The notes under the pieces were generated by a model. It saw nothing but the letters and a program-made list of their open reading frames with translations, did not search any database and was not told the DNA's origin. From Pseudobdellovibrionaceae bacterium (GTDB taxonomy: Bacteria > Bdellovibrionota > Bdellovibrionia > Bdellovibrionales > Bdellovibrionaceae): a stretch of 64,000 nt of DNA. Where the stretch lies: the NCBI GenBank assembly GCA_022843825.1, contig JALHMX010000007.1:1-64000 (forward strand), read 5' to 3'. Of this stretch, positions 40,595 through 43,262 are shown piece after piece (positions within the stretch are counted from its first letter, which is position 1; each line of letters starts with the position of its first letter). Made by a program: the position numbers and the translations under genes.

Positions 40595-40715
40595 GTGACT
40601 GCTTCTGAGCTAAATCTTAAAAATTATGTCTACTTTTTTTTCACAATAAAACACATTAAAGGAACTCAAAACATCCTCCGAAAGATCACCACTAGACTAA
40701 AAGCGAGGTTTGAAA

Positions 40716-41501
40716 ATGAGCAAAAAAAATATTTCTTTAGGTGTTATTTTAGTGGCGATTATCTCGGCCCACTTCTTTACAGGTTGTTCTCCAAAAAGTT
40801 TTGAAGCCGGGTCATCGTTAGCTGGCGAAAATACTGGTGCGGGCAACGGAGGCGATAACACTGGTAATGGCGGCGGTTCAACTCCACCGAATACCTCGAT
40901 TGAAACTTTAGATCTTAAAAGTCGCGTTGATGATCCTAACGGCTTGTTGGGTTTTAATGGTGCGTTAGCTTTTGATTTTGATAAGGTTCGTGGCGAATTT
41001 ATTATTATGGTCCCTATGCCCAGCGGTATGGTGTTCACCCCTTCAGGATCCTTCAATAAGTATCCTGATATCAAGTTTGGCCCTATTTTCGATGCAACTG
41101 GTAAAATGAAGATGGCTATTCGTATACCTGTGAAATATGTTATCCGCGGAGTAACGACCATTAACCCTGCTAAACTTCCGAGTGGTGAAGACTTACCGGC
41201 AATGCCTGCGGGTCGCGATGAGCTACCAAGCTTAGCCCTTCAATTTCCAGCTAGTAATAATGTGCAAATTCATCTTTATATAGGAGTTAATGCCTTGGGT
41301 ATGTTCTTAACACTGCCTAATCAAGCATCACTGCCGCTGCCATTCAACCTGACTTTGCCTCTTAAAAATCAAAGTAAAACGAAAACTTATGGTTACTTAA
41401 CATATGTAACCGCTAAAAGAGGCTATGATGCAGGTCTTTTTGTTTCCTCGATCATACCTCCAGAAATCGCTCGTATCCTTGAAGACTATTTCGAGCTCTA
41501 A
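40716..41501 (+). CDS. Lipoprotein, unknown
   Basis: About 261 residues from ATG 40716 (GAGG seven bases upstream; a TTG two codons earlier is less likely). Signal peptide ends at lipobox HFFTGC. A Gly/Asn/Ser-rich linker (ENTGAGNGGDNTGNGGGS) follows, then a beta-rich domain with no motif recognised. The linker suggests a surface-tethered domain at the outer membrane. It sits between flagellin and the H1-like gene, both with their own signals, and is probably a single-gene transcript. Confidence 0.7.
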   Translation: MSKKNISLGVILVAIISAHFFTGCSPKSFEAGSSLAGENTGAGNGGDNTGNGGGSTPPNTSIETLDLKSRVDDPNGLLGFNGALAFDFDKVRGEFIIMVPMPSGMVFTPSGSFNKYPDIKFGPIFDATGKMKMAIRIPVKYVIRGVTTINPAKLPSGEDLPAMPAGRDELPSLALQFPASNNVQIHLYIGVNALGMFLTLPNQASLPLPFNLTLPLKNQSKTKTYGYLTYVTAKRGYDAGLFVSSIIPPEIARILEDYFEL

Positions 41502-41571: not shown

Positions 41572-41601
41572 TTCTTGATTCACGTTTTAAAAAAATATAC
41601 T
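41572..41601 (+). promoter_or_regulatory. Promoter candidate for the H1-like gene
   Basis: Good -10 TATACT at 41596-41601. The -35 is either TTGATT at 41575 (15-base spacing) or TTCTTG at 41572 (18-base spacing). A GGAG ribosome-binding site lies 8 bases before the ATG. Confidence 0.4.
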
Positions 41602-41646
41602 CTCTTGTCATACCAATAAACCAACCCTAATAAATCGGAGTTAAGT

Positions 41647-42138
41647 ATGGCTAAAAAGAAGAAGAAATCTGCTCAAAAAACCAAAAAAGCAGCTAAGAAG
41701 ACCGCTAAAAAATCTAAAAAAGCTGCTAAAAAGACTGTGAAAAAAACGGCGAAAAAAGCAAAAAAAATTAAAAAGGCAGTAAAAAAAGTTGCTAAAAAAA
41801 CAACTAAGAAGCCTGCGAAGAAAGCCGCGCCTAAAAAGAAATCCGCTGCGCCAAAAGCCAAGAAAGCAAAAACTCTTAAAACAGCTGCATTAGGTGCTGC
41901 AGGCGGAGCGATGACTCAATCTACTTTTGATGACTTAACTTCTGAGTTTGACGATGAAATTGAAGTTGATGTCGACAGTGTAGATGCTATCTCACCTGTT
42001 GAAGAAGACGATGATGACTTTCAAGATTTAGAAGCTTCAGCGGAAGAAGATGATATGGAAGAAGAGTTGGAAGATGACTCAGCCGTTGCTGCTGTAGCAG
42101 ACGAAGATGAAGACGAGGATGACGAAGGTTACTTCTAG
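41647..42138 (+). CDS. Histone H1-like nucleoid protein with acidic tail
   Basis: 163 residues in two halves. Residues 1-78 are almost entirely Lys and Ala with some Thr/Ser/Pro (repeated AKK/KKAAKK), matching histone H1-like bacterial proteins that coat DNA. A short linker (AALGAAGGAMTQ) leads to residues 93-163, rich in Asp and Glu (EEDDDDF, EDEDEDDEG). The acidic tail could fold back on the basic half, modulate DNA binding, or bind a partner. Family: H1/HC1-like. Expression probably strong (GGAG, TATACT promoter). Confidence 0.82.
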   Translation: MAKKKKKSAQKTKKAAKKTAKKSKKAAKKTVKKTAKKAKKIKKAVKKVAKKTTKKPAKKAAPKKKSAAPKAKKAKTLKTAALGAAGGAMTQSTFDDLTSEFDDEIEVDVDSVDAISPVEEDDDDFQDLEASAEEDDMEEELEDDSAVAAVADEDEDEDDEGYF

Positions 42139-42161
42139 TCTGTAGATTTTTTAATTAGAAT

Positions 42162-42193
42162 AAAAAAAGGGCTTCTTCCGAAGCCCTTTTTTT
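42162..42193. terminator. Bidirectional intrinsic terminator
   Basis: 14-bp arms (42162-42175 with 42180-42193): A7 then GGGCTTC, loop of four, GAAGCCC then T7. Serves the H1-like gene (+) and the sigma54 activator (-). Confidence 0.93.
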
Positions 42194-43262
42194 ATTTTGT
42201 TTCTGGTTTACTGTGAACTGCGTACTTCTCAAATTCTCCGTACTCATGAAGTTTGTTGTACAAAGTTTTAATCGTAATACCCAAACCTTGGGCCGCTTGA
42301 GTTTTATTACCACCATAAAATCCTAAAGCACTTATAATATATCGTCTTTCCAAATCATGCAGTTGCATCTCCGGATTAAAAGCCATGGCTTCTTCTTTTT
42401 TGACAGGTACACGAATATTTTCAGGAATATCATTTAACATGATCGTGTGACCTTCTGATAAAACTTGTAATCTTTCGCAAGTGTTTTGCAACTCACGAAT
42501 ATTTCCTGGCCAATCATACTTGATTAAAGCATTCATAGCTTCTTCATCAATATTTTTTGAATTATTCACGAAGTCTTTGCCCGTAGACAGAAAGTGATGC
42601 ACAAGTGCAGCGATATCTTCTTTACGACGACGTAATGGAGGAGCCGCTAACACTATTGTATTAATACGATAGAATAAATCTTCTCTGAAGTTTCCACGAG
42701 TCACTTCTTGGTCCAATTCGCGATTAGTCGCGCAAATAATTCTTAAGTCAACTTTGATAGCATCTTTGCCACCAACACGGTAAATTTCTCCTTCTTGAAG
42801 AAATCGCAAAAGTTTAGCTTGAATAGCCATTGGAATTTCACCGATTTCATCCAAGAATAAAGTTCCGCCGTTAGCCGCTTCGGCTAAGCCCATTTTTTTA
42901 GTGTAAGCTCCAGTGAAAGAGCCCTTTTCGTGTCCAAAAAGTTCTGACTCTAATAAGGCTTCACGTAAAGCTCCGCAGTTAACTGCTATAAACGGCTTAT
43001 TTTTACGATTTGATTTTTCATGAATCGATTTAGCAATAAGCTCTTTACCAGTTCCCGATTCTCCTAGGACTAAAACATTCGCATGCGATGGGGCCACGCG
43101 ATCAATCATTTTAATCAACTGAGCCATAATGTCAGATTTGTAGACCATCTTTTTTTCGTCTTGAATTGCAGCCGTAGGGGCCCATGTTCGAGCAGCCTGG
43201 CTTTGTTGCGAGCTAGTAGGTAATACTAAACCTGAGTTTGAGTTTGAATTTGAATCCGACAT
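42192..43262 (-). CDS. Sigma54-dependent transcriptional activator without receiver domain
   Basis: About 356 residues from ATG 43262 (GAGGTG six bases upstream). A short Ser/Asn-repeat N-terminus replaces a receiver or sensor domain. The AAA+ domain has Walker A VLGESGTGKELIAKSI, the sigma54-contact GAFTGA loop as GSFTGAY, Walker B GGTLFLDEIGEI, and the R-finger region FREDLFYRINTI. C-terminal Fis-type helix-turn-helix: NKTQAAQGLGITIKTLYNKLHEY. Without a receiver it is probably constitutive or controlled by level or a partner. Position beside the flagellar block is suggestive only. Confidence 0.92.
   Translation of the reverse strand: MSDSNSNSNSGLVLPTSSQQSQAARTWAPTAAIQDEKKMVYKSDIMAQLIKMIDRVAPSHANVLVLGESGTGKELIAKSIHEKSNRKNKPFIAVNCGALREALLESELFGHEKGSFTGAYTKKMGLAEAANGGTLFLDEIGEIPMAIQAKLLRFLQEGEIYRVGGKDAIKVDLRIICATNRELDQEVTRGNFREDLFYRINTIVLAAPPLRRRKEDIAALVHHFLSTGKDFVNNSKNIDEEAMNALIKYDWPGNIRELQNTCERLQVLSEGHTIMLNDIPENIRVPVKKEEAMAFNPEMQLHDLERRYIISALGFYGGNKTQAAQGLGITIKTLYNKLHEYGEFEKYAVHSKPETK

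Follow-up and report, generated by a model that had tools for sequence, protein, structure and literature searches.

A conserved Bdellovibrionia protein that joins an H1-tail-like basic block to an acidic block and a conserved C-terminal tip

The charge-diblock gene and its surroundings

The window (the whole 64,000-nucleotide stretch of DNA analysed here, from contig JALHMX010000007.1 of a Pseudobdellovibrionaceae bacterium) carries on its forward strand an open reading frame at 41647–42138 (stop codon included) that encodes a 163-amino-acid protein, called here the charge-diblock protein, and that has a GGAG ribosome-binding site at 41637. The original prediction described residues 1–78 as a Lys/Ala repeat and residues 93–163 as about half Asp/Glu, and the composition bears this out: the first stretch (41647–41880) consists of 40 Lys and 18 Ala (74% of its residues) plus other residues that include no Asp or Glu, giving it a charge of +40, and the second (41923–42135) is 52% Asp + Glu with no Lys or Arg. 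Neither block contains any opposite charge, the whole protein has no Arg, and the cumulative charge along its 163 residues goes up to +40 and is then followed by −37. Measured as charge segregation per residue, the protein is an extreme outlier among the 135 window ORFs of at least 60 amino acids (0.227 vs 0.058 in the runner-up). The two blocks are joined by a hinge of small residues (residues 79–92, TAALGAAGGAMTQS; 41881–41922), which is Ala/Gly-rich in many orthologs and variable in sequence. The acidic block opens with residues 93–102 (41923–41952), for which the consensus is DxxSEFDDE (also written DDLxSEFDDE), and it closes with the tip EGYF (42124–42135), the most conserved element of the protein and our proposed docking motif. 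The original prediction mentioned neither of these motifs nor the conserved gene order around the gene.

The gene appears to have transcription signals of its own. A putative promoter at 41575–41603 on the forward strand has the −35 hexamer TTGATT (41575), a 17-nucleotide spacer and the −10 hexamer TACTCT (41598); its form in the protein family is TTGCCT-17-TAGTCT, and an element of this type, with spacing that is mostly 17, lies upstream of 56 of the 97 orthologs described below. This conserved element has the look of an ordinary promoter of the sigma-70 type, not of one specific to attack phase; a strict consensus promoter scan did not pick it up. Downstream, an intrinsic terminator is predicted at 42156–42199 (forward strand), and a terminator-like hairpin is present within 150 nucleotides of the gene in 70 of 96 orthologs. 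By these signals the gene would be an independent transcription unit. In the genus Bdellovibrio (g4) the promoter −10 is spanned by an inverted repeat, TGCCCCCTTA-N-TAAGGGGGCA (for example at L062, L061, L133 and L134). Of 45 anchored promoters 15 have this repeat, some species showing paired changes in it (CCCTC/GAGGG), and it is not evident in the window. Such an operator-like repeat at the −10 suggests that the charge-diblock gene may be regulated.

The surrounding genes lie in the order ClpB (opposite strand), a small ORF, fliC, often a lipoprotein-like gene, the charge-diblock gene, a sigma-54 regulator (opposite strand) and an xerD-like gene, and this ClpB-to-xerD-like arrangement was found across the taxonomic order as well as in G270, a genome from elsewhere in the class. 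In 52 of the 56 loci with enough sequence, fliC precedes the charge-diblock gene on the same strand; in genome G004 the charge-diblock gene lies at ~2.96 Mb, downstream of a flagellin gene that is most likely fliC5 (Bd3052, PMC2791853), and in B. bacteriovorus HD100 the ortholog probably follows fliC5 directly. The lipoprotein-like gene that stands between fliC and the charge-diblock gene in the window (40710–41501, forward strand) lacks a Pfam match and is conserved, with low identity, in many relatives. A flagellin match is absent from 15 genomes of the order, and orthologs of the charge-diblock protein were nonetheless read in three of these (G122, G123 and G126, at L082, L113 and L094, respectively), two of them still adjoining ClpB. 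Since the gene is kept without flagellin, its role would not be tied to the flagellum.

Conservation of the two halves and of the tip

When the 141 genomes of the order were searched with the single window protein, 68 of them, in 31 genera, had matches, most of which spanned both halves. A profile built from 30 members (alignment A1), in which the MAK or MAR N-terminus and the Lys positions are nearly invariant, matched 62 of the 66 genomes of the taxonomic family; across the phylum it had matches in 238 of 369 genomes, the weaker of these being partly compositional. Two apparent absences among the genomes of the taxonomic family (G057 and G097) are contigs that end exactly at the charge-diblock gene, as is expected of repetitive sequence. 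From the class Bdellovibrionia we collected and read 97 distinct orthologous proteins 133 to 289 amino acids long, and all 97 keep both halves, with mean block charges of +41 (basic) and −39 (acidic). Among them the basic block is free in length and repeat order, but the layout is constant, as is the N-terminus, which mostly reads MAK or MAR. Both halves also align between relatives. The idea that an H1-tail-like basic block is joined here to an acidic tail is thus supported and extends to the relatives, and a frameshift or assembly artefact, or an acidic half missing from all relatives, is ruled out by the 97 orthologs with both halves. All of the features by which the protein family is recognised were found: a basic block, an acidic block, an acidic-run tip ending mostly in Tyr and a hydrophobic residue, and a position with ClpB/fliC on one side and the sigma-54 regulator on the other. 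Judged by this distribution among sequenced genomes, the charge-diblock protein is ancestral to the class Bdellovibrionia and near-universal in Bdellovibrio-type bacteria.

The tip, of the form [acidic]-G-Y-F, is conserved far more than the sequence around it. The end GYF is present in 76 of the 97 orthologs, the penultimate Tyr in 92 and the final Phe in 89, the last residue otherwise being Ile, Val or Met. Its GYF codons occur in 13 synonymous combinations among the orthologs, which indicates that selection acts on the peptide, and so strictly kept a four-residue tail argues for a real, overlooked protein family. We scanned 84,980 species' genomes (257 billion bases) with a DNA pattern of the last 11 codons only and obtained 27 loci, every one of which belongs to the charge-diblock family; at each locus whose stored stretch extends far enough, the Lys-rich half lies upstream. 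The window's own genome has no DEGYF end besides that of the charge-diblock gene. Because the tip scan returned this family alone, the tip would be a private mark of the family and not a widespread tag of the degron kind, and it is the feature that, on sequence grounds, best argues for a specific function. Chance composition is ruled out as an explanation of the protein by its outlying charge segregation together with the confinement of the tip scan to the family. A tblastn scan of genome_contigs with the whole protein gave no matches, probably because tblastn masks low-complexity sequence.

Nearly all of the records returned by the tip scan are named as Bdellovibrio-type bacteria, and the three others are named "Streptomyces griseus" (a MAG), "Proteobacteria bacterium" and "bacterium". 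The first of these, public MAG record CALQIT020000018.1 (L166), carries the charge-diblock family, and its label is probably wrong.

Several further proteins have a similar layout. In the phylum outside the class, six (at L068, L069, L072, L073, L074 and L088) are basic and then acidic, with an acidic motif YGWxY, and have neither the EGYF tip nor a fliC neighbour; they are either distant relatives or convergent. The window's genome encodes a second Lys-rich-then-acidic protein of 286 amino acids (L079:1041–1901, reverse strand, contig C3), which lacks a Pfam match and contains a stretch rich in Cys and His (CxxxxC...GYCRxHY), and a distant member of the phylum has a protein laid out in a similar way (L087).

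Predicted structure and possible functions

The window protein has no Pfam match, and Pfam searches with 30 relatives gave only three scattered single-member matches. Searches of the 30 members for Hc1, HC2 and phasin domains at E 0.01 also gave no match, a negative result that is weakened by low-complexity corrections. In the charge-diblock protein we found no winged-helix H1, HMG box, histone-chaperone, AlgP, sigma, CarD or SSB domain, and the Arg-free window protein has no AT-hook (RGRP). The top NCBIfam match was to an RNA polymerase sigma factor, NF004560 (E 1.2e-4, 21 bits vs a cut-off of 711), and it falls on the low-complexity Lys/Ala-then-acidic N-terminal extension of that model; with a score so far under the cut-off, we judged it compositional and rejected a sigma-factor identity. 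A PADLOC match to HamC (E 0.0024) was likewise judged compositional. The AlphaFold model made with the 30-row alignment has a mean pLDDT of 52.8 and a pTM of 0.14, and its only helix is a short one of low confidence at residues 93–102 (pLDDT ~60), which suggests that the protein is disordered.

Elsewhere in the window's genome, a GroES (Cpn10) gene (L080:1270–1779, reverse strand, contig C6) has an in-frame Lys-rich N-terminal extension. For HD100 GroES2 a repetitive N-terminal region has been treated as a wrong start (PMC3464611), and the extension seen here hints that this region may be real.

Our preferred reading, held tentatively at a little under an even chance, is that this is a small, fully disordered, charge-diblock nucleic-acid-binding protein in which the acidic block moderates the basic one and the tip docks one conserved partner; we infer the binding of nucleic acid, the competition by the acidic block, the docking by the tip and the localisation to the nucleoid. 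Binding by the Lys/Ala block would be electrostatic, to DNA or else to RNA or polyphosphate, on the model of the H1 C-terminal tail and of the KPAA tail in AlgP; Lys/Ala blocks are able to bind RNA, polyphosphate or acidic proteins too. Within one chain or between chains, the acidic block would compete with nucleic acid for the basic block, much as prothymosin alpha competes for H1, and this competition might lead to weak, fast, salt-dependent binding or to self-association into a condensate; with its net charge near zero the protein could also be kept off DNA altogether. The complex that H1 forms with prothymosin alpha is tight and disordered (PMC7661507), and AlgP, whose Lys/Ala/Pro tail binds DNA, associates with polyphosphate granules (PMC9239181). 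The EGYF tip, and possibly the SEFDDE motif as well, would dock one conserved folded partner and so bring that partner to the nucleoid or recruit the charge-diblock protein to it. Co-variation of the charges would be expected if the two halves must balance, and the raw rank correlation between them among the orthologs is 0.39; however, phylogenetic contrasts (28 agree, 35 disagree) do not support it, and charge balance as a co-evolving property of the halves was dropped.

The NCBIfam result raises the alternative of a disordered factor associated with RNA polymerase, the ribosome or RNA, with the tip docking on the transcription or translation machinery. Myxococcal CarD, which joins an acidic segment to a basic DNA-binding segment (PMC4374960), offers a parallel, but the sigma-factor match is one of composition only and far under its cut-off, and no sigma or CarD domain was found, so that we regard this as unlikely. 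A role that has been proposed for AlgP and PhaF, anchoring polyphosphate or other granules to the nucleoid, would fit the Lys/Ala/Pro-type tail composition that the charge-diblock protein shares with both (PMC9239181) and the KPA-rich sequence of many orthologs; the lack of a phasin or AlgP domain, and an acidic block and tip that have no counterpart in AlgP as described, make it quite improbable. To the same degree improbable is the chaperone role that the histone-chaperone analogy of the original prediction would imply, in which the acidic half would bind basic proteins of the nucleoid such as HU or bacterial histones and the basic half would keep the complex near DNA. The acidic block does resemble prothymosin alpha in composition, the window's genome encodes three HU-family proteins, and the histone Bd0055 of B. 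bacteriovorus is abundant (PMC10627809), but there is no chaperone fold and a sequence-specific tip is unnecessary for such a role.

We consider it very unlikely that the tip acts like the C-terminal peptide of SSB and binds SSB-interacting repair and replication proteins: the acidic run with a C-terminal Phe (89 of the 97 orthologs) recalls the SEDIPF end of the SSB of the window's genome, but most orthologs have G-Y and not I-P before the last residue and some end in Ile, Val or Met. The least likely rival, and a highly improbable one, is a flagellar accessory, which the same-strand fliC upstream at 52 of the 56 testable loci would favour, but the gene has a predicted promoter and terminator of its own and is kept in the three genomes without a flagellin match, in two of them still beside ClpB.

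Extended to the chromosome, the preferred reading of a partner-docking charge-diblock nucleic-acid binder leads to a bolder proposal that is possible and distinctly doubtful: a hitherto undescribed core protein of chromatin or condensates, present class-wide in predatory bacteria, in which an H1-like tail and a prothymosin-like chain are fused and a dedicated partner is engaged through EGYF, and which would tune nucleoid compaction. In the Bdellovibrio lineage the attack-phase nucleoid is highly compacted, its compaction and reopening between attack and growth are little understood, and further proteins beside the histone Bd0055 are suspected (PMC11318664); the charge-diblock gene is a near-universal conserved candidate. 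The charge-diblock protein is absent from the list given in a review of the B. bacteriovorus chromosome, which comprises HU, IHF, Fis, Dps and two histones (PMC11318664), the accessible part of the nucleoid proteome paper contains no mention of such a protein (PMC10627809), and main texts searched under nearby locus tags yielded no literature on the B. bacteriovorus ortholog. The silence of nucleoid proteomics could be due to a near-lack of usable tryptic peptides: in-silico trypsin reduces the basic block to fragments and leaves the acidic half of the window protein as one 85-residue piece, and fully tryptic peptides of 7–30 amino acids number none from the window protein and one, of 22 amino acids, from the B. 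bacteriovorus ortholog. The tip gives a concrete handle toward a partner, and for the physics of disordered complexes the protein offers a naturally occurring case in which a basic and an acidic disordered chain are covalently paired.

Comparison with known systems

Bacterial H1-like proteins of the chlamydial Hc1/Hc2 type have a Lys/Ala-rich H1-like block, as the charge-diblock protein does in its Lys/Ala repeat, although it has no Pfam match to them; to our knowledge the usual bacterial H1-like proteins have no long acidic tail. The AlgP and PhaF proteins of Pseudomonas share with it a disordered, Lys/Ala-rich H1-like tail, which binds DNA in their case (PMC9239181), but theirs is a C-terminal tail preceded by an N-terminal helical domain, and descriptions of them include neither an acidic block nor an EGYF tip. 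The likeness to SSB, an acidic disordered tail ending in Phe, is one of style and not of letters, since SSB has a DIPF end and an OB fold whereas the charge-diblock protein has a GYF end and no OB fold.

The original prediction also saw a resemblance to eukaryotic histone-chaperone or HMG-type tails, which is fair as an analogy and fails as family membership, there being no HMG box, AT-hook, histone-chaperone domain or winged-helix H1 domain. Like HMGA and the HMGA-like domain of Myxococcus CarD, the protein sets an unfolded basic DNA-binding part (putatively so in its own case) beside an acidic segment (PMC4374960, PMC4482583), but those proteins carry RGRP AT-hooks, which the Arg-free charge-diblock protein does not, and CarD has a folded RNA polymerase-binding domain besides. 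HMGB proteins differ in that their acidic tail follows an HMG box, to which we found no match.

There is also a parallel in composition with H1 and prothymosin alpha, basic and acidic disordered chains that are able to pair (PMC7661507) and whose counterparts here lie in one polypeptide. By composition and low pLDDT, residues 1–78 have the character of the Lys/Ala/Pro-rich disordered H1 tail, but the winged-helix globular domain of H1 is absent, as the lack of a Pfam match and the fold-less AlphaFold model indicate, and H1 and prothymosin alpha are two separate eukaryotic proteins, so that the resemblance is of composition and not of descent. The charge-diblock family is a lineage-specific form of the bacterial H1-like kind.
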